Shown: piece after piece, positions 7,599-51,929 of the stretch
Layout: each line of letters begins with the position of its first letter
Numbering within the stretch: position 1 is the stretch's first letter
NCBI GenBank assembly: GCA_947488765.1
Contig: CANLAE010000001.1
Span: 62,001 to 126,000 of the forward strand
Origin: Chitinophagaceae bacterium
GTDB taxonomy: Bacteria > Bacteroidota > Bacteroidia > Chitinophagales > Chitinophagaceae
Direction of reading: 5' to 3'
DNA: 64,000 nucleotides
Made by a program: the position numbers and the translations under genes
The notes under the pieces: generated by a model
The model's input: the letters and a program-made list of their open reading frames with translations, nothing else
Database searches by the model: none
What the model was told of the DNA's origin: nothing

Positions 7599-8792
7599 TT
7601 ATTTACTTAAATGCATACTTCTTTCTTTATACAAAGTTCTGAAGTATGGATCTCTTAAATCTTTGATGAAGCGGATAGCCTCACCGGTACTTTTCATTTC
7701 AGGTCCTAATTCTTTATTTACGCCTGGAAATTTGTTGAAACTGAAAACAGGTTCTTTGATAGCGTAACCTTCGAGTTTTTTCTCCATTGTAAACTCAGTT
7801 AGTTTTGCTGCACCCAACATTACTTTAGTAGCAATATTCAAATAAGGAATTTGATAGGCTTTGGCAATAAATGGGGTTGTTCTTGAAGCCCTTGGATTTG
7901 CTTCAATTACATAAACTTTATCTCCTTTTACAGCAAACTGAATATTAATCAACCCCTTTATATTCAAGGCTCTTGCAATTTTTTCACTGTAAAATTCCAT
8001 TGTTTCAACAATCAATGGTGTAAGGTTAAAAGCAGGTAAAACTGCGTTGCTATCTCCACTATGAATCCCAGCCGGCTCAATGTGCTCCATCACGCCCATT
8101 ACATGAAAATTTTCTCCATCAAAAATCGCATCTACCTCTGCTTCCTGGCAACGATCAAGAAAATGATCAATTAAAATTTTATTATCGGGAATATGTTTTA
8201 AAATACTGATGCAGGCTTTTTCTACTTCTTCATCATTAATTACAATTCGCATTCTCTGCCCACCCAATACATAACTCGGACGAACCAAAACAGGATATCC
8301 AACTTTATTGGCAACATCAATTGCTTCTTCAGCAGTATAAGCAGTTCCGTAATTCGGATAAGGAATATTGAGTTCTTTTAATAAATCGCTGAAACGACCT
8401 CTATCTTCAGCAATATCCATATTATCAAAACTTGTACCTATAATTTTTATACCTTTTTCATGTAACTTTTTGGAAAGTTTCAAGGCTGTTTGTCCGCCCA
8501 ATTGCACTATCACTCCTTCGGGTTTTTCTAATTCAATGATTTCCCACAAATGTTCCCAGTAAACGGGCTCAAAATATAATTTGTCAGCCATGTCAAAATC
8601 TGTACTCACTGTTTCAGGATTGCAATTCATCATGATTGCTTCATAGCCACATTCTTTGATTGCCAACAAGCCATGTACACAGCAATAGTCAAACTCAATT
8701 CCTTGACCTATTCTGTTAGGGCCACTGCCTAAAACAATTATTTTTTTCTTAGAAGTTGGGATGGATTCGTTTCCTTGTAATAACTTGCTCAT
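7599..8792 (-). CDS. carB: Carbamoyl-phosphate synthase large subunit, C-terminal synthetase half (split gene)
   Basis: The ~397-residue product matches only the second half of CarB, the domain that phosphorylates carbamate to carbamoyl phosphate. It opens with NESIPTSKKKIIVLGSGPNRIGQG at the point where full-length proteins begin their second synthetase unit. It contains the ATP-grasp motifs RPSYVLGGQ and EANPRASRTTPF. It ends with KSTGEAIRFIKDLRDPYFRTLY, so there is no C-terminal MGS-like allosteric domain. The first half lies 41.5 kb away on the other strand (50283-51929), and the two together would give about 945 residues. I chose ATG at 8792 over the TTG at 8810, because that TTG is part of a perfect -7 promoter box. 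Confidence 0.95.
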   Translation of the reverse strand: MSKLLQGNESIPTSKKKIIVLGSGPNRIGQGIEFDYCCVHGLLAIKECGYEAIMMNCNPETVSTDFDMADKLYFEPVYWEHLWEIIELEKPEGVIVQLGGQTALKLSKKLHEKGIKIIGTSFDNMDIAEDRGRFSDLLKELNIPYPNYGTAYTAEEAIDVANKVGYPVLVRPSYVLGGQRMRIVINDEEVEKACISILKHIPDNKILIDHFLDRCQEAEVDAIFDGENFHVMGVMEHIEPAGIHSGDSNAVLPAFNLTPLIVETMEFYSEKIARALNIKGLINIQFAVKGDKVYVIEANPRASRTTPFIAKAYQIPYLNIATKVMLGAAKLTEFTMEKKLEGYAIKEPVFSFNKFPGVNKELGPEMKSTGEAIRFIKDLRDPYFRTLYKERSMHLSK

Positions 8793-8807
8793 TGTAGAAG
8801 AATTGTG

Positions 8808-8815
8808 CAAATGTA
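8808..8815 (-). promoter_or_regulatory. -7 promoter element of the carB C-terminal half
   Basis: The minus strand reads TACATTTG (TAnnTTTG) 15 nt before ATG 8792. The 19-nt stretch ACCTTACATTTGCACAATT around it recurs exactly upstream of the carB N-terminal half at about 50098-50116. Confidence 0.65.
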
Positions 8816-8913
8816 AGGTTGCTAATTTTTTTTTACGGGCTTTTTTGAGATTACTTTAAAAATTAGTCTCTGAAAAAACAAAACATTATCCCTAAAACAA
8901 TAATCTTCTGGTT

Positions 8914-9498
8914 TTATCCTTTTTTCAATTGTTGAGCACTTGCTTCTAAGGCTTCATAAAATTCTTCGCCATATTTTCGGATTAAAGCATCTTTTAAAAA
9001 AATATAAACAGGTACTTTCAATTTTTTACCCAAACTACAAGCCGTAGCACAAAGGTCTTCACGGGGTTCATAATTTACATATTCCAAATCCGGATCCTGC
9101 TTGCTTTTGCTGATTTTAATGGGAAATAAATGGCAACTCAGTGGTTTTTTCCAACCGATTTTTCCGTCATTGTAGGCTTGTTCAAATCCACATTGTATTA
9201 CACCGCTTTTATCTTTATAGCCATATGCGCAAATTGCATTATTAACGATTGGTGTAACCCAGCCAAATTCTCTGTCAAAAGTAAATTTCCCTTGTTCTTC
9301 AATAGCATCAATCCCTTCTTGTGTCAGGTAAGGTTTTACGATGGCATAATATTTTTCAACTTCTAATTTTTCCCAGTTTTCAAGTGGAGCCCCGGCATCT
9401 CCATCTTCACAACAGCCTCCTTTGCATTGCGTAAGATCGCAAACAAATTGCTCTTCTAAAACTTCATCACTAATTAATTTGTTGTCAATTGCAATCAT
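8914..9498 (-). CDS. DUF3109 family cysteine-rich protein
   Basis: A ~194-residue soluble protein matching DUF3109, related to YkgJ-type metal-binding proteins. Near the start it has FVCDLTQCKGGCCEDGDAGAPL, later ICAYG, IQCGFEQA, LSCHLFPI and DLCATAC, a set of conserved Cys that probably binds a metal such as zinc or an Fe-S cluster (inference from family). Start at 9498 (MIAIDNKL) rather than 9555: a perfect -7 box TATATTTG lies at 9506-9513, seven bases before it, and the longer version would place coding sequence across that promoter. It lies upstream of the carB C-half, 121 nt apart, on the same strand. Confidence 0.85.
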   Translation of the reverse strand: MIAIDNKLISDEVLEEQFVCDLTQCKGGCCEDGDAGAPLENWEKLEVEKYYAIVKPYLTQEGIDAIEEQGKFTFDREFGWVTPIVNNAICAYGYKDKSGVIQCGFEQAYNDGKIGWKKPLSCHLFPIKISKSKQDPDLEYVNYEPREDLCATACSLGKKLKVPVYIFLKDALIRKYGEEFYEALEASAQQLKKG

Positions 9499-9505
9499 AG
9501 TGTAG

Positions 9506-9513
9506 CAAATATA
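9506..9513 (-). promoter_or_regulatory. -7 promoter element of the DUF3109 gene
   Basis: TATATTTG on the minus strand, a perfect TAnnTTTG match ending seven bases before the ATG at 9498. Confidence 0.6.
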
Positions 9514-9606
9514 AACCTTAGCAGCCCTCAAAAACATAAAAATTACTACCCTCATTTTTAAAAAAGGGGATATCCATTTTCCTTAACTTAGCAAAAAATA
9601 GAAATC

Positions 9607-9993
9607 ATGGATTCTACCATTTCTGCAGGCATCTCTATTCTTGTTGAAACTTTTTATCAACCGGAATACAGTCATCCTGTAAATCAGGAATTTATGTTTG
9701 CTTACAGAATTACCATTGAAAATTTCAACAATTTCACCATACAATTATTATCCAGACACTGGGATATAAAAGACAGCAATGGCGAATGGAGAGAAGTTGA
9801 CGGAGAAGGTGTAGTAGGTATTCAACCAATGATCGCCAACGGCAAACAATTTCAATATGTAAGCGGTTGTAATTTAAAAACAGAAATTGGACAAATGCGT
9901 GGTTATTATATTGTTGAAAATCAAAACACCAAAGAACAGTTTAAAGTTACCATTCCAACATTCAATTTGGTTGCTCCGCACAAAAACAATTAA
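9607..9993 (+). CDS. apaG: ApaG family protein
   Basis: The 128-residue product has the single FN3-like ApaG (DUF525) fold: VETFYQPEYSHPVNQEFMFAYRITIEN, then LLSRHWDIKDSNGEWREVDGEGVVGIQP and GYYIVE. The length is normal for ApaG. The family was linked genetically to Co2+/Mg2+ homeostasis and to ApaH in enterobacteria, but its biochemical role is unclear. It is monocistronic here, divergent from DUF3109 and convergent with gldB. A near-consensus -7 box (TAACTTAG) lies about 17 nt upstream of the ATG. Confidence 0.92.
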   Translation: MDSTISAGISILVETFYQPEYSHPVNQEFMFAYRITIENFNNFTIQLLSRHWDIKDSNGEWREVDGEGVVGIQPMIANGKQFQYVSGCNLKTEIGQMRGYYIVENQNTKEQFKVTIPTFNLVAPHKNN

Positions 9994-10003
9994 TCTGTTT
10001 TTA

Positions 10004-11038
10004 TCAGGGTTTATATTTTGCTTCTTCAAAAATTTCTTTGGCACTTTTATTTAATAGTTCTTGTAAGGTAACTGAACTATTCTTTTTGATCCATTTTTTT
10101 ACAATTTGCCAACCTACGAATTGTCCAATAAAACCAGGGCTTTCATCACCCAAAGCTTGTGTATTGGGGGCATCGTTTAAGTAGTCTTTTATCAAATTAA
10201 AATCATTGACAAACAGCAAATTATTCACTACAAAAAAGCTCCAGATATTGGCTTCATTTTTAAAACAACCATCTAATTGTTGTTGTGTATAGCCAGTAGT
10301 AATACTATCTGCAACATCGGGAACAAGGGCTTGTAAAATATACAATCTTTTCCCGGCTTCTATCATTTGTTGTATCAGAGGCTTACCAACACTTTTATCG
10401 GGATAAATATCATCAAGCAACACTTTCATTGCATCAGTGGTAATATACTTTTTATCAAACCTTCTGCTGATAAAATTGGGGTACATTTCCTGTATTGCCT
10501 GTTCTTTATAAATGCTAAAATCACTTCCTAAAAAAAGTTGTAATCCAATGCCAAGAATAGGTCCATCACGAAAAACCCCACTGCCTCCATTTTTTGTACT
10601 CAACATAAACATTGCATCCCAGGGACCAACATAAGTAACAAGTTGTGTTGGTAATTGATAATCAGGAAAATAATATTTCATCAGCTTCAATCCTTGCTTG
10701 ATTTCTTTTTCAATGGGTGTAACATCAGCATATAAAGATTGGCTTACAGTGTAAATATTTTTATAGGCATTGGTAAATAATTGTACGTTTTTCAATACAC
10801 TATCCGGCTGTGGATCACTAGCCAAAATATTTTGCAAAAAATCAACATAAAATTGTTGGTAATTTACATACAGTTGTTGCATTCCGGCATCTAAATGATT
10901 GCTATCCAAAGCAAAAAAATCTTGTTCAAATCTTTGTGTAGTCAGTTCAACCTTAATTTTTGAAACGTCCGGCGTTTTTTTAGAATTGCTACAAGCAACA
11001 AGTGAAAAAAAGATAAAAAGAGTAATGGTATATTTCAT
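10004..11038 (-). CDS. gldB: Gliding motility lipoprotein GldB
   Basis: A 344-residue lipoprotein with an N-terminal signal ending in the lipobox LVAC (Cys16). The body matches GldB-type proteins: QRFEQDFFALD near the start, then YFPDYQLPTQLVTYVG, GLQLFLGSDF, and ESPGFIGQFVGWQIVKKW near the C-terminus. GldB is needed for gliding in Flavobacterium johnsoniae; homologues also occur in non-gliding Bacteroidota, so gliding in this organism is not proven. It is predicted to be anchored in a cell-envelope membrane. It is convergent with apaG (10 nt apart) and divergent from nadE. Confidence 0.85.
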   Translation of the reverse strand: MKYTITLFIFFSLVACSNSKKTPDVSKIKVELTTQRFEQDFFALDSNHLDAGMQQLYVNYQQFYVDFLQNILASDPQPDSVLKNVQLFTNAYKNIYTVSQSLYADVTPIEKEIKQGLKLMKYYFPDYQLPTQLVTYVGPWDAMFMLSTKNGGSGVFRDGPILGIGLQLFLGSDFSIYKEQAIQEMYPNFISRRFDKKYITTDAMKVLLDDIYPDKSVGKPLIQQMIEAGKRLYILQALVPDVADSITTGYTQQQLDGCFKNEANIWSFFVVNNLLFVNDFNLIKDYLNDAPNTQALGDESPGFIGQFVGWQIVKKWIKKNSSVTLQELLNKSAKEIFEEAKYKP

Positions 11039-11177
11039 AATAGGTTTTTATTCGCAGTCCATTTACTTTCAACAATCCAATAAAAAAGTTGAATGCACGA
11101 AATAACATTAAAAAGATGAAATCAATTTGTTAAGATGAAATTTGTATGCTATCATTATAAATCATCAAATTTGTAGT

Positions 11178-12860
11178 ATGAAAATTTTCTTAGCCCAACA
11201 AAATTATCATATTGGAAATTTTGAAAGCAATACTGCAAAAATGATTGCAGCCATTGAATCTGCAAAATCGCAGGGTGGTGATTTAATTGTTTTCAGTGAG
11301 ATGAGTGTTTGCGGTTACCCTGCAAGAGATTTTGTAGAGTTTAAGGATTTTATAGATAAATGTTACGAAAGCATTGATATCATTAAACAATATGCCGATA
11401 CTATTGGCGTATTGATTGGTTCGCCGGCTCGTAACCCGATTGTTGAAGGCAAAGATTTATTCAATGCTGCATTTTTTTTATACGAAGGAGAAATAAAAGC
11501 TGAAGTACACAAAACATTATTACCAACCTACGATGTGTTTGATGAGTACAGGTACTTTGAACCGGCATACGACTGGCAAGTAATTCCATTCAAAGGAAAA
11601 AAATTAGCCGTAACTATTTGTGAAGACATTTGGAATTTGGGCGACAATCCTTTGTACCGTATTTGTCCAATGGATCAATTAATGCAACAAGCACCGGATA
11701 TGATGCTAAATCTTTCGGCAAGTCCTTTTGATTACACACATGATGAAGATCGAAAAGCAGTAATTAAAGCAAATGTTTTAAAATACAAACTCCCTTTATT
11801 TTATTGTAATGCAATAGGTAGCCAAACTGAAATTGTATTTGATGGAGGCAGTTTAATATTTGATAAAGATGCCAATTTGGTAAAAGCATTTCCATTATTT
11901 GAGGAAGCAATTGAAGGCGTAGAACTCAATGATGACGGTACTATCACCGCAGCAATTATAGAACCTGCAAGCAGAGTACCTGACAAAGAATTAACCCCGG
12001 CTGCATTGGAAGAAAATTTAAATATTGCACAAATACATGCTTCATTGATTTGTGGCATCAGAGATTATTTTGCAAAGATGAATTTTACAAAAGCCATTCT
12101 TGGGAGCAGTGGCGGAATTGACAGTGCAGTAGTATTGGTATTGGCTTGTGAAGCGTTAGGAGCAGAGAATGTACGGGCAATATTAATGCCATCGCCATAT
12201 AGCACATCGCATAGTGTTAATGATGCAGTAGCGCTGAGTGAAAATTTAAAAAACCCCTACGACATCATTAGAATCAACGATGTGTATGAATCATTTTTAT
12301 CAACGCTTCAGCCAATATTTAATGACTTACCTTTTTCTTTAGCGGAAGAAAATATACAAAGCAGAAGCAGGGGAAATTTATTAATGGCAATAGCCAATAA
12401 GTTTGGCTATATTCTTTTAAACACAAGCAATAAAAGTGAACTTGCAACAGGCTACGGAACTTTATACGGAGATATGGCGGGTGGGATTGGTGTGTTGGGT
12501 GATTGTTACAAATTACAAGTGTATGCATTGGCAAAATACATTAACAGAAACGAAGAAATTATTCCATCGCATATTATTACAAAGGCACCTAGTGCTGAAT
12601 TAAGACCCAATCAAAAAGATAGTGACAGTCTTCCCGATTATGAAATACTGGATAAAATTTTATACCAATACATTGAAAGAAGACAGGGGCCTGATGAAAT
12701 TAAAGCACAAGGTTTTGATGTTGCATTGGTTGACAGAACATTAAGAATGGTGAATAACAATGAATACAAACGCAATCAATTTTGTCCTATCATTCGGGTA
12801 AGTCCAAAAGCATTTGGAGTTGGCAGACGAGTGCCTATAGTAGGAAAATATTTGAGTTAA
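11178..12860 (+). CDS. nadE: Glutamine-dependent NAD+ synthase
   Basis: A ~560-residue two-domain enzyme that amidates nicotinic acid adenine dinucleotide to NAD+ with glutamine as nitrogen donor. The N-terminal nitrilase-type glutaminase has the triad Glu41 (FSEMSVCGYP), Lys112 (VHKTLLPTYDVFDEYR) and Cys148 (TICEDIW). The C-terminal synthetase has the pyrophosphatase loop LGSSGGIDSA and NTSNKSELATGYGTLYGDMAGG. The start at 11178 (MKIFLAQQNY) is the family start; an upstream ATG at 11142 would add 12 unconserved residues. The stop is 2 nt from the convergent universal stress gene. Confidence 0.96.
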   Translation: MKIFLAQQNYHIGNFESNTAKMIAAIESAKSQGGDLIVFSEMSVCGYPARDFVEFKDFIDKCYESIDIIKQYADTIGVLIGSPARNPIVEGKDLFNAAFFLYEGEIKAEVHKTLLPTYDVFDEYRYFEPAYDWQVIPFKGKKLAVTICEDIWNLGDNPLYRICPMDQLMQQAPDMMLNLSASPFDYTHDEDRKAVIKANVLKYKLPLFYCNAIGSQTEIVFDGGSLIFDKDANLVKAFPLFEEAIEGVELNDDGTITAAIIEPASRVPDKELTPAALEENLNIAQIHASLICGIRDYFAKMNFTKAILGSSGGIDSAVVLVLACEALGAENVRAILMPSPYSTSHSVNDAVALSENLKNPYDIIRINDVYESFLSTLQPIFNDLPFSLAEENIQSRSRGNLLMAIANKFGYILLNTSNKSELATGYGTLYGDMAGGIGVLGDCYKLQVYALAKYINRNEEIIPSHIITKAPSAELRPNQKDSDSLPDYEILDKILYQYIERRQGPDEIKAQGFDVALVDRTLRMVNNNEYKRNQFCPIIRVSPKAFGVGRRVPIVGKYLS

Positions 12861-12862
12861 AC

Positions 12863-13702
12863 TTATCGTTTATCGTGCACTAGCAATACAGGAATATAAC
12901 TGTGAAATACCATCATTTTGGTTTTACTTCTATGAAATATTTTATCGATGATTGTATGATGTTTGGGTATAATTAATAATAAATCGATGGCATTAGTTTC
13001 AACAAAATCATTTACTCCATCGATGAAATTATCGTTTTGTGTGTAATGGTATTGAGGGTCATAACCTTGAAATAAAGTATTCAGTGTAATACTTTCTGCA
13101 ACCTCTGCACCTACCAATTCTTTTTTTGTTTGTTGAACATACAATACATGCAAAGTAGCTTTTGTAGTATCTAGCACTGCTGTAATTAAATCAATTGGAG
13201 TTGTCTCATACACATCTCGATAATCGGATAGGAGTAAAATATTTTTTATTGGACTATATTTTACAAAAGGTGGCACAATAATAACAGGTAATTCTATATG
13301 CTTTGCTAAATGTAGGGTGTTACTTCCTATTAATGCCTCTTCGGTTGTATTGGAACCTGTAAGTCCCATTACAATTAAATCTGCTTTTTCTTTTTTAGCA
13401 GTTTCTGTAACCCCTATGATTACTGTATTGTAGCTATTTAAAATAGACAATGTAATGGAATTGTTACACAAAGGTTGTAGTTGATCTTTCAAATGCAATA
13501 AAGCAATCTCACTATCAGTTTTTAAATCATTTATATTGATTAAAAAAGGAACTGTCATACCATTATCAGTTGCAATTGGTAACTCATAAGCGTTATAAAC
13601 TATTATACTTGCGCCACCAATTTGTTTGGCAAATTCTATTGCATAAACAGCAGCATTGAAAGAAGTTGGAGAAAAATCAACCGGCACTAAAATAGTCTTC
13701 AT
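12863..13702 (-). CDS. Tandem universal stress protein (UspA family)
   Basis: The 279 residues contain two Usp domains. The first begins KTILVPVDFSPTSFNAAVYA and carries LIVMGLTGSN...LIGSNTLHLAKHIELPVIIVPP, close to the ATP-binding G-2x-G-9x-G(S/T) signature. The second (from about 150) begins IKNILLLSDYRD and ends HSYIPVLLVHDKR, with the nucleotide signature degraded. In this family the proteins act in the cytoplasm in stress survival; the exact role is unknown. A perfect 8-bp inverted repeat overlaps the start codon and may be an operator. Confidence 0.88.
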   Translation of the reverse strand: MKTILVPVDFSPTSFNAAVYAIEFAKQIGGASIIVYNAYELPIATDNGMTVPFLININDLKTDSEIALLHLKDQLQPLCNNSITLSILNSYNTVIIGVTETAKKEKADLIVMGLTGSNTTEEALIGSNTLHLAKHIELPVIIVPPFVKYSPIKNILLLSDYRDVYETTPIDLITAVLDTTKATLHVLYVQQTKKELVGAEVAESITLNTLFQGYDPQYHYTQNDNFIDGVNDFVETNAIDLLLIIPKHHTIIDKIFHRSKTKMMVFHSYIPVLLVHDKR

Positions 13703-13723
13703 GTTGTATGTTATTTACAACAT
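13701..13723. promoter_or_regulatory. Inverted repeat over the start of the universal stress gene
   Basis: ATGTTGTA (13701-13708) and TACAACAT (13716-13723) form a perfect 8-bp inverted repeat with a 7-nt spacer. It overlaps the start codon and would suit a dimeric repressor or an mRNA hairpin hiding the start. Confidence 0.4.
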
Positions 13724-13866
13724 AAATATCAAGTATATCACGTTGAAAAAACATGATGATACACAATCATTAAAATGATTATGATTATTGTACAATAAAG
13801 ACTCAATGTGGTAGCGAGTTTAGTTAGAGGAAAATTCTATCAATAAAAATTTAATTCGAGATTTTG

Positions 13867-14340
13867 TTAATTACAAGCTTTATCGGCACAACAACTGCTA
13901 GCAAAGGCTTCAGGCTTGGCTTTAAAGGCAAAACCCATTCCTAAAATATAGCCCATTGCTTCTTTTAATGCATCGTTACTTTTAAATCCGGGATTGGTGT
14001 TTATGTCTGCATGTACTTCCATATCAACTGAATGTTCAATAAATAAGTCGCACAATTCATAAGCAATTTCGATGCTTTTTGCTACTTCAACCAACATTCT
14101 TTCTTTAATGTGATATCGTTGAGTTGTTTTTTCATTGTGGATGTACATGAAGCCGCCACTGTGTTCTCTTAAAAAAACAATAACAGTAGCAAATTCAGTC
14201 TCGGCACCTTTTACTTGACTATCAGTGCCAATACAAACTTTTAAACGAGTACCTTTTGCAGTTTCTCGGATGATTGCTTCTTCCACTGCGTCCTTAATTG
14301 GTAATACAATGGATTCGCCGTTAAACTTTCTCCAACGCAT
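13867..14340 (-). CDS. YkuK-like (DUF458) RNase H-fold protein
   Basis: The 157-residue product matches the YkuK/DUF458 family, which has an RNase H-like fold: KVCIGTDSQVKGAETEFATVIVFLRE near residue 35, then HNEKTTQRYHIKERMLVEVAKSIEIAYEL, and the acidic VDMEVHADINTNPGFKSNDALKEAMGYILGMGFAFKAKPEAFASS. The conserved Asp in GTDSQ and the Asp in HADIN could bind metal. No activity is established for the family as far as I know. The C-terminus ends in a short Cys-rich tail (SSCCADKACN). Intergenic DNA on both sides is AT-rich with no other gene. Confidence 0.82.
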   Translation of the reverse strand: MRWRKFNGESIVLPIKDAVEEAIIRETAKGTRLKVCIGTDSQVKGAETEFATVIVFLREHSGGFMYIHNEKTTQRYHIKERMLVEVAKSIEIAYELCDLFIEHSVDMEVHADINTNPGFKSNDALKEAMGYILGMGFAFKAKPEAFASSCCADKACN

Positions 14341-14483
14341 AATTTTTAGGTTTCCCCAAGTTAAGCATTAAAACTAGTTTTATCGATTATTTAATTGTTA
14401 AGTGATTATTGATTGTGTATAAATTGTAAATCAAAACAATTTGTTTTAAAAAAATTGATTGATTATAAACTTTGATTTCTAAG

Positions 14484-14828
14484 TTATTTTTTTGGATTTA
14501 AAACCTCGAAATAGGTTACCCAAAAAATATTGTCCTTAAGTTCACCTTGGATTCTAGCTTTTTTTACAGCATTACAAAAACCATTTTTAGCATGTGCATC
14601 TCCATAATCATCAATATTTGTTCCCTTTATAAAATATGCACTATCATTATATTTTACAGCGAGTACACAGCCCTTACCTTTCATTTTAAACATACATGTT
14701 CCGCAAGCAGTTTCTAACTCATACACATTTTTATTTTTATCAAACTTTAATTGTTCGTTTGAATTCGCTTGGGAAGAAGCTGAATGAACAAATAGAAAAA
14801 CGGCAATAAATAATAAATATGTTTTCAA
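14484..14828 (-). CDS. DUF6370-like secreted protein
   Basis: A 114-residue protein with a clear N-terminal signal peptide (MKTYLLFIAVFLFVHSASSQA). The mature part has ACGTCMFKMKGKGCVLAVKYNDSAYFIKGTNIDDYGDAH, which I recall as the DUF6370 pattern, with four Cys including a CxxC. It is probably periplasmic; function unknown. The CxxC could bind a metal or form a disulfide. It stands alone between the YkuK-like gene and a divergent GNAT gene. Confidence 0.75.
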   Translation of the reverse strand: MKTYLLFIAVFLFVHSASSQANSNEQLKFDKNKNVYELETACGTCMFKMKGKGCVLAVKYNDSAYFIKGTNIDDYGDAHAKNGFCNAVKKARIQGELKDNIFWVTYFEVLNPKK

Positions 14829-14984
14829 TTGTGTAGATTTTATTTTTTCTTGTATCTTTCTGATAAAAATTTTATTTTATATTCGAAAACAAACTTAACA
14901 AAAATCATTTGATTGTTTGATGAAGATAATGATGATTTTGATTTTATTTGTCTACTTGAAATTCCTAACTAAATAATTGAATTT

Positions 14985-15521
14985 ATGAATCCTAATTTAC
15001 AACCCACCGATTTATTCAATGATTTTGTAAAGCTTGTTCCGCTGCAACAAAATGATTTTGATGCATTGTATGCAGTAGCTTCCGATCCATTGATTTGGGA
15101 ACAACATCCCAATCCGGATAGATATAAAAAAGAAGTTTTTGAAAACTATTTTAAAGGTGCAATGGAGTCTAGAGGCGCAATGCTGATAAAGAACAGCAAC
15201 ACCAATGAAATCATTGGCAGCAGCAGGTTTTATGATTTTGATGCTGAAAAAAATTGTATCAATATTGGGTATACATTTTTCGCTAGAAGTTGCTGGGGAA
15301 AGCCGTTTAACAGCCCTACAAAAAAGTTAATGATTGAATACATGTTACAGTTTGTAAATAATATCTACTTTCAGGTTGGTGCACAAAACTTTCGTTCACA
15401 AAAAGCAATGGAAAAATTAGGTGCACAAAATATAGGACAAGAAGAGGTTGCTTATTATGGTGAAGCAAGCAGACTGAATTATATTTATTTAATTACAAAA
15501 AGCACCTGGGAAATCCAATAA
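14985..15521 (+). CDS. GNAT family N-acetyltransferase (RimJ/RimL-like)
   Basis: The 178-residue product has the GNAT fold of the RimJ/RimL group: an N-terminal VKLVPLQQNDFDALYAVASDPLIWEQHPNPDRY, AMLIKNSNTNEIIGSSRFYDFD in the central strands, IGYTFFARSCWGKPFN in place of the more usual pyrophosphate loop, and the C-terminal NFRSQKAMEKLGAQNIGQE typical of the group. It would use acetyl-CoA; the acceptor is unknown. It converges with the DUF2306 gene, one base apart. Confidence 0.87.
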   Translation: MNPNLQPTDLFNDFVKLVPLQQNDFDALYAVASDPLIWEQHPNPDRYKKEVFENYFKGAMESRGAMLIKNSNTNEIIGSSRFYDFDAEKNCINIGYTFFARSCWGKPFNSPTKKLMIEYMLQFVNNIYFQVGAQNFRSQKAMEKLGAQNIGQEEVAYYGEASRLNYIYLITKSTWEIQ

Positions 15522-15522
15522 A

Positions 15523-16128
15523 TTAATACTCAATTCTTACAAACTTAGTATTCAATAAAAACAAAGCTGCAATTAAATTTGGTAACCAACACAACCAAGC
15601 CAAATAAGGATAAAAAACTTCAAATGGTAACCCGCTAGCAAAGCCAATTCCTAAACCCGTTCTCAATGTTACGGCAGCAAATGTTAGTGCAAAATTGATA
15701 AAAATCCATTTGAAATGATTTACTACATTTCCTTTTATAATAGAGCTGTAAGCCATCATTCCTGTTACAAACCATAATATAGCAAGGGTTCCAAAACCAT
15801 AATGAGATATAGTTCCTCCAAAGGAATAAAAGGACATATATAAACCACTAATAGAGCCAATTAAAACTGATACAAAATAGAATTTGCCTAATAAGCGATG
15901 TACTGTAGGTTTTTTTATTCTTAACGATTTTGTAAATTGAAAAGGACCTAATAGCAACGCAATCATAGAAGAAAAAATATGAGTATAAATGCCAATTGAA
16001 TGAGCCTGAAAATTTTTTTTCATAGCAGGATGAACTGCTATACCCAATTCCAAAAATCCATAAATGAACAATGCATATGCAGCAACAGAAATGGATAAAA
16101 TGAAGATGAGTGATTGCAGAAATTTCAT
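15523..16128 (-). CDS. DUF2306 family membrane protein
   Basis: A 201-residue integral membrane protein with about six hydrophobic helices and the DUF2306 motifs: FQAHSIGIYTHIFSSMIALLLGPFQF early, KPTVHRLLGKFYFVSVLIG in the middle, and HFKWIFINFALTFAAVTLRTGL later. Conserved His residues in helices suggest haem or metal contact, but function is unknown. It is divergent from the TonB receptor gene, with a 17-bp palindrome 12 nt upstream of its start. Confidence 0.8.
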   Translation of the reverse strand: MKFLQSLIFILSISVAAYALFIYGFLELGIAVHPAMKKNFQAHSIGIYTHIFSSMIALLLGPFQFTKSLRIKKPTVHRLLGKFYFVSVLIGSISGLYMSFYSFGGTISHYGFGTLAILWFVTGMMAYSSIIKGNVVNHFKWIFINFALTFAAVTLRTGLGIGFASGLPFEVFYPYLAWLCWLPNLIAALFLLNTKFVRIEY

Positions 16129-16139
16129 TTCACAATATA

Positions 16140-16156
16140 AATTTTACAGTAAAATT
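16140..16156. promoter_or_regulatory. 17-bp palindrome upstream of the DUF2306 gene
   Basis: AATTTTAC-A-GTAAAATT is a perfect dyad about one central base. It lies 12 nt upstream of the DUF2306 start, in the divergent spacer shared with the TonB receptor gene. It is a plausible operator but is made of AT-rich DNA, so chance is possible. Confidence 0.35.
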
Positions 16157-16288
16157 ATTTTTTATTGCACTACAATATTAAAACGAATTAGTGTTTATTT
16201 GAAATTGATTAGATTGATTTATTTTTTAAAAAAAATTCTTAAACAATTAATTAGTAAAATTGTTAACCATTACAAATCAAATTCAATC

Positions 16289-18727
16289 ATGTTTCGTATT
16301 AAAATTTTAGCCGTTTTAGTTTTATTCTTATCATTTTCAGTTTCTGCTCAAAATATGGGTAAGCTTAGCGGAACCCTTATCAATAAAGCATCTCAGCAAG
16401 TGTTATCAGGATTAACTGTTCAGGTTTCACCTGGGAATAATAAAACAATCTCTGATTCTTTGGGTAAATTCAGATTTACGCAACTAAAGCCGGGTTCTTA
16501 TAGTTTAACCATCTCCGGCGTAAATATTCAAACAAAAGTTTTGAATAATATCGCTGTTACAACAGGAAATGAAAATTATTTGCAAATAGAATTAGATGAT
16601 GCAATTAATCAATTAAAAAATGTTGTAGTTACTGGCAGAAAAAATTCAGCCAAAGCTGCAACATTAGAAAGTCCTTTAAGTATTCAACGCCTTACTACAG
16701 AAGACATCAGAGCCAATCCAGGTGGTTCTTTCGACATCAGCAGGGTTATTCAATCGCTTCCTGGTGTTGGTGGTGGTGCATCGGGTGGCACTTACCGAAA
16801 TGATATCATTATCAGAGGTGGTGCACCAAGTGAAAATGTTTTTTATTTAGACGGAATTGAAGTACCTATTATTAATCATTTTGGCACACAAGGCAGTGGT
16901 GGCGGACCAAAAGGAATTTTAAATGTGTTGATGATTGAAGATGTAAAATTAAGTTCATCTGCTTTTGATGCTAAATTTGACAACACACTGAGCAGCGTTT
17001 TTCAGTTCAAACAAAAAAATGGTAACCCCAATAAATTACAAGGAAATATCCGCATCAGCCTTACTGAATCCGCACTGACATTCGACGGACCATTATCTAA
17101 AAAAACAACCTTCATTGCTTCTGCAAGAAAGAGTTCACTGGGATTATTGGCAAAGGCACTCAACTTCTCTTTTCTTCCAAAATATACCGACTTTCAATTC
17201 AAAACTTCTACTCGCATTGATGACAAAACCACATTGACCATTTTAGGAATTGGTGCAATTGACAATTTTAGTTTTATCACTCCCGAAAAAATTACTCCTG
17301 AAAATCAATATGATTTAAACAGCAATCCATTTATTGATCAGTGGAGTTATACAGTAGGCGCTACCATCAAAAGATTGATACCAAATGGTTACTGGAATTT
17401 GAGTGTCAGCAGAAATGCATTAGATAATGTGCTTGATAAATATGAAAACAATCAAAACCCAACAGAAAGTACCCGCACCCTAAAAATCAACAGCAACGAA
17501 ACTGAAAATAAATTAAAATGGGATGTAACTAAAAATTTAAATAGCATCACTTTAAGTTATGGAGTAGTAACCCAATACATTCAATTTACCAATAACTTTT
17601 ATCAGTTATTTAGAAAAGGAATGGTTGATGCTTTAGGGCAACCTCTGGTTCCAATTGAGCTGAAAAGTAATACCAGCAGTAGTTTCATCAGATATGGCGG
17701 TTTTGTACAAGCAGGTACAAGATTGCTTAATGATAAATTATCTTTAAGTGGCGGACTTCGTGTTGATGCCAATAATTTAGACAATAGTGAACCAAATCCT
17801 TTGCAACAATTAAGTCCGAGAATCAGTGCGAGTGTTGCATTATCATCTCAAGTTAAATTCAATGCGAGCTATGGTATTTATTACCGTCTTCCAAGTTATA
17901 CGCAACTTAATTTTAGTAATGCAAGCAACAATCAAAGAACCAATTCCGGAAAATATATTCAAAGTACACACTACGTTGCAGGTTTTGAATATTTACCAAA
18001 AAATACCACTCGCTTTACGGTAGAAGGATTTTACAAATCATACAATAATTATCCTGTCAGCATCAATGATGGTATAAGCCTTGCAAATAAAGGAACAGAA
18101 TCAGGTGCTATAGGTAATGAACCGATTGTACAAACTGGAAAAGGAAGGGCTTATGGTTTTGAATTATTTGCACAACAAAAATTAACCGATAAATTATTTG
18201 GCGTATTTAGTTACACATTGTACTGGAGTGAATTTACCGGAATTAAAAATACGTATGCTCCTGCAAGTTGGGATAACAGACACCTTATCAGCATGACTGC
18301 AGGTTACAAGCTTCCTAAAAATTGGGAGATTGGATTGAAATTTCGTTACCAAGGTGGTGCCCCTTACACACCTTATGATGAAGCAACAAGCAGAAGAAAT
18401 TTTTTAACTAGTGGTACAGGAACTTTTGATTACCAAAAAATCAATACGCTTCAATTACAATCATTTAATTCGGGTGATTTAAGGGTTGATAAAAAATGGA
18501 ACAAGAAAAAAATTACTTACGATTTCTTTATTGATATCTCCAATTTTTATTCAGCAAAATCTGTGGGTGTTGATTCTTACACATTCAACCGAAATTTAGA
18601 TAACACAGCATTTATAACTTCAGATGGGCAACCAATTAAACCAGATGGAAGCAATGGAATACCCATGTATTTGATTAATGAACAAACAACTTTGTTGCCA
18701 ACAATTGGTTTGATTGTTGAGTTTTAA
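16289..18727 (+). CDS. TonB-dependent outer-membrane receptor
   Basis: An 812-residue outer-membrane protein from MFRIKILAV. It has a signal peptide ending at VSAQ, a carboxypeptidase-regulatory-like/CNA-B-type domain (~residues 24-110, KLSGTLINKASQQVLSGLTVQVSPG), then a TonB plug (about 130-250, SIQRLTTEDIRANPGGSFDISRVIQSLPGVGGG and IIIRGGAPSENVFYLDGIEVP), then a beta-barrel ending LLPTIGLIVEF with the terminal aromatic residue. No SusD partner lies next to it, so it is not an obvious glycan-utilisation locus; the substrate is unknown. The longer frame from 16064 is rejected because it lacks the signal peptide at its start and overlaps the DUF2306 gene. Confidence 0.92.
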   Translation: MFRIKILAVLVLFLSFSVSAQNMGKLSGTLINKASQQVLSGLTVQVSPGNNKTISDSLGKFRFTQLKPGSYSLTISGVNIQTKVLNNIAVTTGNENYLQIELDDAINQLKNVVVTGRKNSAKAATLESPLSIQRLTTEDIRANPGGSFDISRVIQSLPGVGGGASGGTYRNDIIIRGGAPSENVFYLDGIEVPIINHFGTQGSGGGPKGILNVLMIEDVKLSSSAFDAKFDNTLSSVFQFKQKNGNPNKLQGNIRISLTESALTFDGPLSKKTTFIASARKSSLGLLAKALNFSFLPKYTDFQFKTSTRIDDKTTLTILGIGAIDNFSFITPEKITPENQYDLNSNPFIDQWSYTVGATIKRLIPNGYWNLSVSRNALDNVLDKYENNQNPTESTRTLKINSNETENKLKWDVTKNLNSITLSYGVVTQYIQFTNNFYQLFRKGMVDALGQPLVPIELKSNTSSSFIRYGGFVQAGTRLLNDKLSLSGGLRVDANNLDNSEPNPLQQLSPRISASVALSSQVKFNASYGIYYRLPSYTQLNFSNASNNQRTNSGKYIQSTHYVAGFEYLPKNTTRFTVEGFYKSYNNYPVSINDGISLANKGTESGAIGNEPIVQTGKGRAYGFELFAQQKLTDKLFGVFSYTLYWSEFTGIKNTYAPASWDNRHLISMTAGYKLPKNWEIGLKFRYQGGAPYTPYDEATSRRNFLTSGTGTFDYQKINTLQLQSFNSGDLRVDKKWNKKKITYDFFIDISNFYSAKSVGVDSYTFNRNLDNTAFITSDGQPIKPDGSNGIPMYLINEQTTLLPTIGLIVEF

Positions 18728-18804
18728 TAGTTTGAATAATAGTTTTGATGATTGTTAAAATTATATTTTGATTAAGATTGGCTTTTTAAGCCCTTGCTAA
18801 AAAA

Positions 18805-18975
18805 GTGAATAAAATAATTGTAGAAACCAAAATCAACGCCCCTTTAGAAAAAGTATGGCAATGTTGGAGCCAACCTGAACACATTACAAAATGGAATTTC
18901 TCAAACGATAACTGGCATTGCCCTTCGGCAGAAAACAATTTGGTGGTTAGTCGAGAATTTCATTATACAATGGCA
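18805..18975 (+). pseudogene. Truncated SRPBCC (AHSA1-like) domain remnant
   Basis: From a GTG at 18805 the frame reads NKIIVETKINAPLEKVWQCW, then EHITKWNFSNDNWHCPSAENN, which is the N-terminal third of an activator-of-Hsp90-ATPase-like SRPBCC protein (normally ~135-160 residues). After about 55 residues the similarity stops where the sequence runs into the 3' end of the oppositely oriented GH3-family gene. The rest of the frame to 19071 is antisense to that gene. It is therefore a broken copy, probably non-functional, and marks an old deletion or rearrangement joint. Confidence 0.75.
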
Positions 18976-20477: not shown

Positions 20478-20563
20478 AGGAGATAACAGCAAATTAAGAA
20501 ATGAAATTGAAACAAAGAAATTACTTCAAATTTAGTTTTGAAACCACTCAAACAAAAAATTAA

Positions 20564-21388: not shown

Positions 21389-21490
21389 AAAAATATAGAA
21401 TAAAGAAATGCCGGTTAATAAAGTATTTTTACTTAACAGATGTTTGTGTAATAGCTTGCTTGTGTATATTGCATTAATTTATAGGAAAGT

Positions 21491-22444: not shown

Positions 22445-22459
22445 TCACCCAATTCCTTA

Positions 22460-22478
22460 CTTTCATTTTTTCTGAAAG
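22460..22478. terminator. Small bidirectional hairpin between metF and the SurA-like gene
   Basis: CTTTCA (22460-22465) and TGAAAG (22473-22478) form a perfect 6-bp stem with a T-rich loop between two convergent stops. The stem is short and AT-rich, so it is a weak candidate. Confidence 0.4.
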
Positions 22479-22481
22479 GCT

Positions 22482-24413: not shown

Positions 24414-24416
24414 AAA

Positions 24417-25937: not shown

Positions 25938-25967
25938 AAAGTACGAAAATTAAAAACGTAAATTTAA

Positions 25968-26000
25968 GCAAATGAACAATAGTGCCCGTTAATCATTTGC
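25968..26000. promoter_or_regulatory. 8-bp inverted repeat between the TlpA-like gene and rlmD
   Basis: GCAAATGA (25968-25975) and TCATTTGC (25993-26000) are perfect complements separated by 17 nt, in the divergent spacer. No T-run follows, so an operator is more likely than a terminator. The spacer is otherwise unremarkable. Confidence 0.3.
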
Positions 26001-26049
26001 AAAACATTGTTAAGTAATATTTGGGAGGATAATGTCAAATCAGGATAGG

Positions 26050-26081: not shown

Positions 26082-26086
26082 CTTCA

Positions 26087-27511: not shown

Positions 27512-27597
27512 TATAAACACAACCTTTTATTAGTAATCGGAGTTTATTTATTAATTTGCTCACAGAAAATAATATCATTACCTGAATCATCATTAAC

Positions 27598-48124: not shown

Positions 48125-49999
48125 TTATTTTTTTGATGTCTTTTTTCTTTTAATCGCTTTACTTTTCTTGTGGTTTGATTTTACAATTGGTAAGCCTTTT
48201 GTAAACTCAAATTGTTGTTCACTTATGTTGCCACATTCATCTGCAGCTGAAATTTTTAATTCATGTTTTCCCAATGCACAATTTTCATCAAAAGTGTACA
48301 TAAAGTAACTATTTTTTCTGCTAAACATCAACCATTTGCCATCTAACGCTGCACTGAATTTTTTGATGCTGCTGCTGTTATCCGTTACTTTCAAAATTAT
48401 TTGCTGCTCGTTGTTAAACAACATTTTTTGAGGAAAGTTCACTGGTGTAATTGTTGGAGGAATTGTATCTATAACAACTTCAACATCTCCAAATGCATCT
48501 AATGTTGTGTTTGCAACAATTATTAAATTTGGGTTTCCATTAATTTTTTCAATAGAATTTTCTTTTGTAATGACAACTTTTTTGGTTTGTCCGCCAATTG
48601 GATTTTTTACTTTCACCAATAATTTATTTTCATATTTCAACGCAATCGAATCCAATGGAATGCTGATGTAGTAAGGATCTTCGACAGGTATTTGATAATC
48701 GCCAATGTGCAATAAATTGGATGCATAAGGAAACCCATTTCTTATTTCTTGTGTAATTGCAATCAATGCTGTATCAAATAAAGTTGTTGATTGTTCGTTG
48801 CTCCAGACTTTTACATTGGCAATACTTGCATCAGAATTTATATCAGGATAATTAGTATTGAAATATTTTTTTATTGCGTATGGAATTTTAGCATCTGTTT
48901 TTTCTTTGTCTAAATCAGGTTGGTATTGAATGGAACAATGGATATTAGAATTATTTCCGGCAACATCTTTTACATCAATTGATATAGTATGAATGAGTGT
49001 ATCTTTTAGTTCAATGAAAAGGGGATTGGTTATGGGCTTGTTTTTTTGCAAGAGTTCATCATACAAAATATTGTTACCAATTTTTGCAATATGCTGAATG
49101 CCTTTTTGATTATGAATTAAAAAAGGATAATCAATAGAACCATTGATATAGCTGCTTTTGTTGGTATTGATGGTATTGAATTCAAATCCGTTATTAATAA
49201 TGCCATCTACAAATACCGAGGCACTATAAATGCCATAATAATTAGGAGAAATATCTGTTTTGTCATCGGCATTGATACCGAAACTAAATTTATTGCTCCC
49301 AATTTTTACTACAGAATCAAAAGTAATAAAATCATTACCTTCTTTGTGCAAAGCAATTACATGGTTGTCTGTAAAATAAGTGCTGTATCTTCTGTCGTAC
49401 CAATACAAGCCTTTGATTCTTGGTGGTGTATGATCGGCAACATTTAAGCCAAATAAAAGCGGATTAATATTTCTTGTGGCATTACCAATATCTTCTCGAA
49501 TTTCAAAATGCAAATGTGGTCCTTGACTACCGCCTGTATTGCCACTCAAAGCAATGAATTGACCTTTATTTACCTGAAATTGATTGGGTAAAAACGTGAT
49601 GTCTTGTTCCCACTTTTCCGTTTGATATTGTTTGATTTTTACAAAATGATTCAGGGTGTCATAAAAATTATTCAAATGCCCATAAACACTCGTATATCCA
49701 TTGTTATGGGTAATATATATTGCTTTACCGTAACCATAATGTTCTATTTTAATTCTGCTGATATAACCAGCTGCCGCCGCATATACGGGAAGGTTTTCTT
49801 TTTGTTGCGTTCTCAAATCAAGCCCCATGTGAAAATGGTCTTTTCGTAAATGACCAAAATTTCCGGATAATTGAATAGGAATACCCAAAGGGTTACTGAA
49901 AAAATTTTGTGGATAGGATTGATTGGATAAAGATTGGGCCTGCGCAAAAGCAATACCTACACAATAAAAAAGCACATAAAACAATACCAACTTACGCAT
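48125..49999 (-). CDS. M23 family metallopeptidase with large C-terminal region
   Basis: A ~624-residue exported protein with a signal peptide (to AQAQ). The LytM/M23 domain (about 45-190) has HMGLD (His57, Asp61) and GPHLHFEIRE (HxH), the complete zinc site. This domain normally cuts peptidoglycan cross-links, which would be periplasmic. The ~400-residue C-terminal region is beta-rich with Ig-like features (DNSSSIKKFSAALDGKWLM). The start is 49999 (MRKLVLFY); the TTG at 50005 lies in the perfect -7 box TACATTTG that ends only three bases before the ATG. Confidence 0.88.
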   Translation of the reverse strand: MRKLVLFYVLFYCVGIAFAQAQSLSNQSYPQNFFSNPLGIPIQLSGNFGHLRKDHFHMGLDLRTQQKENLPVYAAAAGYISRIKIEHYGYGKAIYITHNNGYTSVYGHLNNFYDTLNHFVKIKQYQTEKWEQDITFLPNQFQVNKGQFIALSGNTGGSQGPHLHFEIREDIGNATRNINPLLFGLNVADHTPPRIKGLYWYDRRYSTYFTDNHVIALHKEGNDFITFDSVVKIGSNKFSFGINADDKTDISPNYYGIYSASVFVDGIINNGFEFNTINTNKSSYINGSIDYPFLIHNQKGIQHIAKIGNNILYDELLQKNKPITNPLFIELKDTLIHTISIDVKDVAGNNSNIHCSIQYQPDLDKEKTDAKIPYAIKKYFNTNYPDINSDASIANVKVWSNEQSTTLFDTALIAITQEIRNGFPYASNLLHIGDYQIPVEDPYYISIPLDSIALKYENKLLVKVKNPIGGQTKKVVITKENSIEKINGNPNLIIVANTTLDAFGDVEVVIDTIPPTITPVNFPQKMLFNNEQQIILKVTDNSSSIKKFSAALDGKWLMFSRKNSYFMYTFDENCALGKHELKISAADECGNISEQQFEFTKGLPIVKSNHKKSKAIKRKKTSKK

Positions 50000-50002
50000 A
50001 AT

Positions 50003-50010
50003 CAAATGTA
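50003..50010 (-). promoter_or_regulatory. -7 promoter element of the M23 peptidase gene
   Basis: TACATTTG on the minus strand (perfect TAnnTTTG), ending three bases before the ATG at 49999; predicts a leaderless mRNA. Confidence 0.65.
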
Positions 50011-50100
50011 CTAAACGAATTTTGTTGTTTTAATGATATTATTTTTTAAATTTTTGATGCTGATTGCTAAATAAAATCTATTTCAAAAGTGAACAGACCT

Positions 50101-50108
50101 TACATTTG
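50101..50108 (+). promoter_or_regulatory. -7 promoter element of the carB N-terminal half
   Basis: TACATTTG (perfect) lies in ACCTTACATTTGCACAATT, identical over 19 nt to the carB C-half promoter. The start codon is 174 nt downstream, so there is a long 5' UTR. It contains GTTGAAGGGGTGCGA (50130-50144) and a near copy at 50221-50234. Confidence 0.6.
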
Positions 50109-50282
50109 CACAATTTGTTTTTTTAGAAAGTTGAAGGGGTGCGAGGAGTTGAAAAGGTTAAAAGAGTCTAGTCTAATAGTTTAGTATAGTTTAAACTTCC
50201 TTGCTTTATAAAGAGATACAGTTGAAGGGTGCGACGCAACGGAAGCAAAATAGAAATTCTACAGTTGATTAAAAACAATATT

Positions 50283-51929
50283 ATGCCTAAAGACAATTCA
50301 ATAAAATCGGTTTTAATTGTAGGTTCTGGACCCATCATTATTGGTCAGGCCTGTGAGTTTGATTACAGTGGTTCTCAAGCGGCTAGAAGTTTGCGTGAAG
50401 AGGGTATTAAAGTGTATTTAATCAATAGCAATCCTGCTACGATTATGACCGATCCAATGATGGCAGATAAAGTGTATTTATTGCCATTAAACGTAGAAAG
50501 TATTGAGCAAATTTTGCAGGAAAATCAAATTGATGCGGTATTGCCAACAATGGGCGGACAAACTGCGTTGAACCTTTGCAAAGAGGCTGATGAAATGGGC
50601 ATTTGGGAGAAATACAATTGTAGAATGATTGGTGTGGATGTTGCTGCAATTAATACTGCCGAGGATAGAGATTTGTTTAGACAATTGATGGTGAAAATTG
50701 GTATTCAAGTTGCGCCAAGCCATGTTGCCAACAGCTTTTTAGAAGGTAAAGAATATGCACAACAAATTGGGTTTCCTTTGGTAATTCGTTCATCATTTAC
50801 ATTGGGCGGAAGCGGTGGCGGATTTGTACATGACAAAAGCGAATTGGATGAAGCTTTGAAACGCGGATTGGAAGCAAGCCCGATACATGAGGTGTTGGTA
50901 GAAAAAGCAGTTTTGGGTTGGAAAGAATTTGAACTTGAATTATTGCGTGATCAAAATGATAATGTTGTAATTATTTGTACAGTAGAAAATTTAGACCCAA
51001 TGGGAGTTCATACTGGTGATAGTATTACCGTTGCACCGGCTATGACGTTGAGTGACACTGCATTTCAAGATATGCGCAATAAAGCAATTTTGATGATGCG
51101 CAGCTTAGGAAATTTTTCCGGTGGTTGTAATGTGCAATTTGCATTAAACCCTGAAACAGAAGAATTGATTGCGGTAGAAATTAATCCTAGGGTTAGTCGT
51201 TCATCTGCATTGGCAAGTAAGGCTACAGGATATCCGATTGCAAAAATTGCTGCAAAGCTGGCAATTGGCTATAGTTTGGATGAATTGAAAAATCAAATTA
51301 CACAAACTACTTCTGCTTATTTTGAACCTGCATTAGATTATGTAATTGTAAAAGTTCCTCGTTGGAATTTTGATAAGTTTAAAGGGGCGAATGACACATT
51401 GGGCTTACAAATGAAAAGCGTTGGAGAAGTAATGGCTATTGGAAGAAGCTTTACTGAAGCGATACAAAAGGCTTGTCAGAGTTTGGAAAACAACGCCGTA
51501 GGACTTGGATATTATGGCAAAAGTTTGATGAAGAGTGAGGAGATTTTAGAATACATTAAGGTTCCGAAGTGGGATAGAATATTTAGAATTAAAGATGCTT
51601 TAATGCAAGGCGTTACTGTAAAAACTATTGCACAAGCAACCGGAATAGACAGATGGTTTTTGTACCAAATTCAAAAAATATGCACCATTGAAAAAGAATT
51701 AGGTAAATGCTTTTTAGAAACCTTGCCTGATGAATTAATGAAAGAAGCAAAACGCAATGGATTTGGTGATGAGCAAATAGCAAAAATATTAAGCGGCGAT
51801 TGTACCGAAGATGAAGTATATGAAAAACGTAAAGCAGCAGGTATTACAAGGGTTTATAAAATGGTAGATACTTGTGCTGCTGAATTTGAAGCAAAGACAC
51901 CTTATTTTTATAGTACGTTTGAGGGGTAA
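50283..51929 (+). CDS. carB: Carbamoyl-phosphate synthase large subunit, N-terminal half (split gene)
   Basis: The 548 residues cover the carboxyphosphate synthetase unit and the oligomerisation domain of CarB: VLIVGSGPIIIGQACEFDYSG, TMGGQTALNLC, IRSSFTLGGSGGG, VEINPRVSRSSALASKATG, then LGLQMKSVGEVMAIGRSFTEAIQKA and RIFRIKDALMQG. It stops after DTCAAEFEAKTPYFYSTFEG, exactly where full-length CarB continues into its second synthetase unit. A strong terminator follows, so this is a complete transcription unit. The rest of the protein is at 7599-8792 on the other strand. ATG 50283 is preferred to the GTG at 50229 because MPKDNSIKSVLIVG is the family start. Confidence 0.95.
   Translation: MPKDNSIKSVLIVGSGPIIIGQACEFDYSGSQAARSLREEGIKVYLINSNPATIMTDPMMADKVYLLPLNVESIEQILQENQIDAVLPTMGGQTALNLCKEADEMGIWEKYNCRMIGVDVAAINTAEDRDLFRQLMVKIGIQVAPSHVANSFLEGKEYAQQIGFPLVIRSSFTLGGSGGGFVHDKSELDEALKRGLEASPIHEVLVEKAVLGWKEFELELLRDQNDNVVIICTVENLDPMGVHTGDSITVAPAMTLSDTAFQDMRNKAILMMRSLGNFSGGCNVQFALNPETEELIAVEINPRVSRSSALASKATGYPIAKIAAKLAIGYSLDELKNQITQTTSAYFEPALDYVIVKVPRWNFDKFKGANDTLGLQMKSVGEVMAIGRSFTEAIQKACQSLENNAVGLGYYGKSLMKSEEILEYIKVPKWDRIFRIKDALMQGVTVKTIAQATGIDRWFLYQIQKICTIEKELGKCFLETLPDELMKEAKRNGFGDEQIAKILSGDCTEDEVYEKRKAAGITRVYKMVDTCAAEFEAKTPYFYSTFEG

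Follow-up and report, generated by a model that had tools for sequence, protein, structure and literature searches.

Two half-genes in place of carB: an old split shared by many Chitinophagaceae and a predicted two-chain carbamoyl phosphate synthetase

The two carB half-genes

A stretch of 64,000 nucleotides from a Chitinophagaceae bacterium (GenBank assembly GCA_947488765.1, contig CANLAE010000001.1, positions 62,001 to 126,000; hereafter the window) carries carB, encoding the large subunit of carbamoyl phosphate synthetase (CPS), as two open reading frames (ORFs), the N half and the C half. A preliminary description of the sequence had presented them as two complete half-genes that together lack almost nothing at the junction, and both points were borne out. 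The coding span of the N half (50283-51926) ends in TPYFYSTFEG and a stop codon, in agreement with the terminus YFYSTFEG reported earlier, and that of the C half (8792-7602, minus strand) opens with MSKLLQGNESIPTSKKK. Pfam domains CPSase_L_D1, CPSase_L_D2 and the oligomerisation domain D3 were matched in the N half, and a second CPSase_L_D1 and D2 in the C half, which stops short of the position of the MGS domain and gave no Pfam match to it. In alignment to E. coli CarB, the N half covers residues 1-548 and the C half residues 556-920, so nothing conserved is lost at the junction.

The source genome comprises 2.5 Mb in 37 contigs and is rated 100% complete. Searching it with both halves retrieved, for each, itself, the other half as a 33% identical paralogue and one distant relative (22-28%); neither a third carB nor a full-length carB was found, the latter being a finding named beforehand as capable of overturning the description. 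carB in the window is therefore represented by two intact genes with no full-length copy. Two ORFs, one per synthetase half, accompanied by a separate carA and no full-length gene, is what is expected of a two-chain CPS, and neither half showed the relaxed selection or broken frame of a pseudogene or silent duplicate. Ratios of nonsynonymous to synonymous substitution rates (dN/dS) between this genome (G000) and its relative G005 were 0.020 for the N half and 0.012 for the C half, and ranged from 0.009 to 0.035 in split comparisons with unsaturated dS, pointing to strong purifying selection on both halves. Annotation calls for some caution, as models may label such genes truncated carB: against TIGR01369 (full-length CarB, cut-off 1027 bits) the N and C halves scored 816 and 504, both below, and against NF003671 (full-length CarB, cut-off 599) the N half passed with 844 and the C half, with 562, did not.

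An assembly error, or a pair of decaying duplicates of a full-length gene, has a negligible probability as the source of this arrangement. G005, a separate draft, has the same neighbours as the window at both breakpoints, and the split is also present in single-contig genomes, including those of other genera (e.g. G026, G086, G171, G245 and G333). The signs of strong purifying selection and the lack of a full-length copy speak against decay, and the earlier conclusion that the halves are no artefact of an assembly join was upheld.

The features of the locus, together with related loci discussed below, are listed in Table 1. An arginine cluster (GNAT, argG, argC and argD by eye) occupies window positions 53258-57881, just downstream of the N half, and is collinear in G005.

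Table 1. Positions of the carB halves, their neighbours and candidate signals in the window, and of carbamoyltransferase loci in relatives
Feature	Position	Strand	Description
carB N half	50283..51929	+	first synthetase (carboxyphosphate/carbamate) half and oligomerisation domain, 548 amino acids
carB C half	7599..8792	-	second synthetase (carbamoyl phosphate) half, 397 amino acids, without MGS allosteric domain
M23 peptidase gene	48125..50005	-	upstream neighbour of many fused carB in relatives; retained by N half
ComEC/competence gene	5437..7554	-	downstream neighbour of some fused carB in relatives; retained by C half
DUF3109 gene	8914..9555	-	new upstream neighbour of C half
GH25 gene	52111..52911	-	new downstream neighbour of N half
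Likely N-half promoter	50101..50115	+	-7 box TACATTTG, initiator CACAATT
Likely C-half promoter	8801..8815	-	same TACATTTGCACAATT as at N half; 15 nt from box to start codon
Possible hairpin behind N half	51952..51989	+	ACAAAAGGGC ... GCCCTTTTGT, long loop; seen by eye, not found by the terminator scan
Carbamoyltransferase loci at carB halves	L173:4285-7900, L171, L172, L318, L319, L166, L124:3344-6816, L181, L317		

Distribution of split and fused carB

The family was surveyed through a search of 394 Chitinophagaceae genomes, from which the 150 best matches, leaning to relatives of the window, were taken together with up to 5 genomes for each genus not yet seen. A gene was scored as split when the N half ended in its own ORF. 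Reading by hand covered 247 of the 394 genomes and gave 120 split and 111 fused; the remaining 16 had no readable state owing to contig ends, fragments, frame breaks, lack of a match or, in one case, a distant CarB. Among the 97 genera with a readable state, 40 have a split member, 59 a fused member and 2 (g20 and g116) both. All ten genomes of the window's genus have a separate N half and nine a separate C half; the member without a C-half match (G004) is an 80% complete draft. When the C half was searched in 80 genomes, 3 of them with fused CarB, a separate C half was found in 70 of the other 77 (2 of these cut by contig ends), fragments only in 1 and none in 6.

Split genes occur in genomes taken as Hydrotalea flava (G173) and Arachidicoccus ginsenosidivorans (G333), and a separate N half was found in Sediminibacterium metagenome-assembled genomes (MAGs; L088, L093, L107), while Chitinophaga (L118), Niabella drilacis (L130) and a Ferruginibacter MAG (L116) have fused carB. 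In a class-wide sample of 144 genomes, 140 of them outside the family, no complete N half was seen to end alone, contig ends aside; in 4 genomes nothing matched and in a few only fragments did. Of 143 genomes sampled across the order, 113 lie outside the family and 14 gave no match; a separate N half was found once outside the family, in G422, and G433 of the same genus has a fused carB. The split is thus old and shared across many Chitinophagaceae genera, the outcome that the preliminary description had said would argue for age over recency.

Other states of the gene were met in passing. All nine sampled members of order family f12 (G046, G420, G431 and six more) gave no N-half match at E<=1e-120, and may use another enzyme or none. 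G319 has, besides a split pair, a second, fused CarB that is 66-70% identical (L205, G319:C3), and G101 has one C half and an N half on each of two contigs (L272, L273, L274). A frame change lies within the C half in L125 (Niabella hibiscisoli) and within the N half in L285 (G028), from error or real change. Fused CarB of the family is mostly about 940-1010 amino acids long and ends without room for the MGS domain of the E. coli protein; an exception is G121, with a distant (53%) CarB of 1104 amino acids.

Break point, promoters and number of fissions

Neighbouring genes were compared in flanks of 1.5 to 10 kb, using flank families chosen after the fused loci had been viewed and leaving the named loci L086-L165, except L124, out of the counts. 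Fused carB of relatives has an M23 peptidase or peroxiredoxin gene upstream in 28 of 57 loci, and ComEC or one of a few other families downstream in 21 of 57. The N halves have retained the upstream neighbours (upstream in 43 of 77, downstream in 0 of 77) and the C halves the downstream families (behind in 26 of 62, before in 1 of 62). The comparison at both breakpoints that had been suggested earlier accordingly placed the N half with the M23 peptidase and the C half with ComEC, as around fused carB. Because the flanks are shared out between the halves in this way, the break must have been made at the linker of an ordinary carB. That linker, which joins the oligomerisation domain to the second synthetase half, measures 2 amino acids in 30 of 31 fused genes of more distant named loci and 2 to 18 in 55 fused genes of the family, as befits a tolerant spot, and split N halves stop 0-1 residue past position 547 in 64 of 74 cases. 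Clade A, to which the window belongs, and the Arachidicoccus clade B have common new neighbours, f6 or f25 (RecO by eye) behind the N half and f26 before the C half; no fused locus has these in those places, and f26 follows the fused gene in L117.

The distance between the halves varies widely. They adjoin in G019, lie 0.5-0.8 kb apart in G113 and G189 and 2.9-7.2 kb apart in G359, G035 and five g105 genomes, and in distant pairs their coordinates differ by up to 3.4 Mb. All ten pairs within 12 kb are on the same strand with the N half first; the 25 distant pairs on one contig comprise 15 on the same strand and 10 on opposite strands. In the window, with 41.5 kb and opposite strands, a single inversion had been proposed, and its arithmetic holds: turned round, the segment 8811-51929 gives M23 peptidase - carB - ComEC, an arrangement found in fused relatives such as G203 (L224) and L123. 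The proposal failed as a recent event, however. That a recent single inversion with a breakpoint inside carB made the split in this genome is extremely improbable, since the split is genus-wide and recurs in 40 of 97 family genera, and since distant pairs occur in both orientations. The geometry itself is weak evidence, because any opposite-strand pair is one inversion away from adjacency.

Comparison with G005, a close relative (N half 98% identical; 87-91% nucleotide identity), showed an extra gene of about 1.7 kb behind its N half. Window positions 1-18974 match one G005 contig and 28492-64000 another. The contig with the C half continues for about 27 kb past the match to window position 18974 with DNA that is not there in the window, and window positions 18974-28492 had no match in the fetched parts of the two contigs. 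The middle of the 41.5 kb stretch is thus not stable even with respect to G005, and the data do not show the mutual orientation of the G005 halves.

The preliminary description had also credited each half with its own promoter and terminator. A likely promoter was located at each (Table 1), but a simple scan detected no intrinsic terminator at either half. The C half precedes ComEC on the same strand with a gap of 44 nt and may be co-transcribed with it. We take the box at the two promoters to be the TAnnTTTG element of Bacteroidota. Of the N halves, 46 of 77 have the motif TANNTTTGCRCAAT in front of the gene, as do 24 of 57 fused carB and 27 of 61 C halves. The letters that come next are TT(A/G)T at 42 of the 46 N halves and at all 24 fused genes; they are mixed at C halves, where the box stands 14-17 nt before the start codon in 26 of 27 cases. 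Chosen after it had been seen at both halves, TANNTTTGCRCAAT had 127 matches in 2.0 Mb of loci centred on carB, some of them overlapping, and by eye all but about 4 were at carB starts; it also precedes carA in G125 and G199 (2 of 27 carA starts read). In the source genome the 16-mer TTACATTTGCACAATT occurs exactly twice, at the two halves. A near-copy with one mismatch was considered as a further promoter and dismissed, as it sits inside a coding region. At the likely start, AATTT(G/A)T is seen in the window (50101-50118) and in the relatives with the motif, in the same 42 of 46 N halves and 24 of 24 fused genes, and its T run recalls the UTP-dependent slippage described for promoter P1 of E. 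coli carAB in the excerpt consulted of PMC6245113.

These promoters lend some credit to a tandem duplication of carB followed by complementary loss, in which one copy kept the N half and the other the promoter and C half: both halves would then have inherited the carB-type motif, nearly confined to carB starts in the loci covered, and the identical 16-mer found nowhere else in the genome. Such a history is nonetheless unlikely. Close-set halves flank other genes and no recognisable carB remnants, the occurrence of TANNTTTGCRCAAT before carA indicates that it can be a shared regulatory promoter, and the likeness of N and C promoters is barely higher within genomes (16.3/21) than between them (15.9; 21 selected pairs, permutation p 0.048). 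The same figures were too weak for concerted evolution of the two promoters, which was discarded. The shared promoter type reflects either a copy of the carB promoter acquired by the C half or common regulation that maintains both.

Trees were built from carB alone, with 126 of 171 extracted pairs; 69 pairs entered the tests. Parsimony on two such trees gave 11 state changes, of which at least 8 and at least 6, respectively, were forced by well-supported branches. Approximately unbiased (AU) tests rejected a single clade of all split genes (p 1.6e-78), as well as the grouping of the upper group with g27 and L124 (p 0.0037), of g27, L124 and g105 (p 0.021) and of the lower five lineages (p 0.0015). 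They did not reject g11 with split g20, nor clade A, clade B and g105 as one clade; held together, the latter gained 17.5 log-likelihood units over the first tree.

Fission several times at the same linker is a safe conclusion and any exact number a soft one. Some features of the analysis tell against a detailed count: the trees are gene trees only, the groups put to the AU tests were defined with the tree in view, and the first searches were not exhaustive, since trees in which groups were held together gained as much as 17.5 log units. In addition, clades A and B, separate in the first trees, may be one. The number of fissions is therefore uncertain. For the window, one fission at the base of A and B is the simplest reading. 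The trees give no direction, and fused members with linkers of up to 18 amino acids would suit one ancestral fission in the family with several later re-fusions. This alternative is very unlikely in view of the fused outgroups, with no lone complete N half away from a contig end in the class-wide sample; fused loci hold upstream and downstream neighbours together, which would be improbable after dispersal, and the inserted genes vary by lineage.

Predicted two-chain enzyme and genes nested in carB

Conservation was assessed at 22 positions over both halves, which, from work on E. coli, we take to be catalytic or to line the carbamate tunnel. None of these residues varies among the 60 split pairs compared or among the 66 fused rows that reach them; two rows are gapped at two positions. 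Whether carB is fused or split, 29 of 30 genomes have a single carA, which in the source genome lies on another contig. No carB half had carA within 60 kb on its own contig, so no operon tie kept carB and carA together. The ammonia tunnel had been thought to span the break; the channel that crosses it is instead the carbamate tunnel between the two synthetase halves. In human CPS1 this tunnel is formed evenly by the two synthetase domains, according to the part of PMC4655335 consulted, and could therefore form across two chains. For Aquifex, an excerpt of PMC6022934 describes reconstitution of the full enzyme from CPS.A and CPS.B.

The halves might alternatively act apart, for example each as a homodimeric small synthetase, and the same excerpt reports a 41 kDa single-half synthetase that works as a dimer in Methanobrevibacter smithii (PMC6022934). 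Separate action is highly improbable here, because each half retains its half-specific sequence and, in split genomes in which both were sought, is nearly always accompanied by the other. We favour, with a probability of roughly 0.88, a functional two-chain CarB derived from an old gene fission, its activity and assembly being read from sequence. A single carB in the ancestor of this part of Chitinophagaceae would have been broken at the linker, by rearrangement or by DNA inserted exactly there. The N half would have kept the old carB promoter, and a promoter of that type, about 15 nt upstream of its start codon, would drive the C half. The two chains would join CarA in a single synthetase whose carbamate tunnel runs through the N/C interface, as in the enzyme reconstituted from Aquifex. 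Breaks at this linker would have recurred in other lineages of the family, where other genes came to occupy the gap, and the distance and opposite strands in the window would represent one outcome of later reshuffling.

Some observations sit poorly with this account. Six drafts (G109, G158, G177, G178, G235 and G266) have a separate N half and no C half was found in them; in G072 and G263, the latter a single contig, the C half comes without an N half at E<=1e-57; and G250 yielded only C fragments and, at that threshold, nothing of the N half. In the synteny counts, a 'downstream' family was found upstream of the N half in 10 of 77 loci and behind it in 2 of 77, and response regulators, one of the downstream families, are broad.

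Split synthetases of this kind are known. In methanogens the large subunit is divided between two genes, carB1 and carB2, and in Methanocaldococcus the break seems, from the subunit lengths, to lie elsewhere. Aquifex CPS.B carries an MGS domain, which the C half described here lacks. The Aquifex aeolicus enzyme (CPS.A, CPS.B and GLN) is otherwise alike in having its large subunit in two chains, one per synthetase half, and a separate glutaminase gene, as outlined in the consulted part of PMC6022934. In contrast to that system, a single Bacteroidota family here contains both fused and split genes, and synteny makes the break traceable. Fused CarB of Chitinophaga, Niabella, Pedobacter and other Bacteroidota shares the domains and sequence of the halves, mostly in ORFs of about 940-1000 amino acids with no MGS domain, and within the family often the flanks and, in 24 of 57, the promoter motif; it differs in being one gene with a linker of 2-18 amino acids. 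A literature search covering few subscription journals found no report of split carB in Bacteroidota among the matches listed. The kind is thus that of the Aquifex-type split synthetase, and its recurrent form in this family appears to be new.

Where the halves are close, the genes between them differ: g104 (G113, G189) has an ORF6N gene there, G422 a small gene of another kind, and G359 a methyltransferase-like gene (by eye) with two others. In g105 (G413, G319, G347, G114 and G286; not G371) and in g27 (G035) the gap holds a GDSL lipase and a carbamoyltransferase, accompanied in g105 by an SxtJ-like small protein with a Pfam score just under the cut-off; in L124 it holds a carbamoyltransferase, a weak GDSL match and the small protein. 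In g116 (G199, G293) the carbamoyltransferase and the small protein directly precede the C half, and G199 has the lipase behind the N half. The nested gene of G347 (g105) belongs to the NodU/CmcH-type carbamoyltransferases (PF02543, PF16861), and those of g27, L124 and g116 are homologues. Carbamoyltransferases at least 63% identical to that of G347 were found in ten genomes, at carB halves in six and elsewhere in four (G203, G011 and G343, with fused carB, and G086, split); the window genome has only a distant one (45%), on another contig. No report of a carbamoyltransferase nested in carB was found among the matches listed in the literature. Spread of the cassette by homologous arms was considered and rejected, as a sliding comparison of protein identity revealed no clear mosaic in carB on either side of the junction, and carB itself looks vertically inherited.

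We tentatively propose, at somewhat less than even odds, that the linker of carB has repeatedly served as a landing site for other genes in Chitinophagaceae. Carbamoyltransferase cassettes (GDSL lipase, carbamoyltransferase and SxtJ-like membrane protein) may have entered it independently in g105, g27, L124 and g116, in the last of which the cassette now lies beside the C half. An operon would result with one half at each end and, in the middle, a gene for an enzyme that consumes the carbamoyl phosphate made by the two halves, and dispersed lineages like that of the window would be later stages with unlinked subunits. From fused genes with short or long linkers through interrupted to dispersed ones, the family offers a natural series for the fission of a large channelling enzyme, in which one can ask how two chains keep the carbamate tunnel tight and how the expression of unlinked halves is balanced. 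The nested carbamoyltransferase suggests, in addition, a link between carbamoyl phosphate supply and a carbamoylation pathway.

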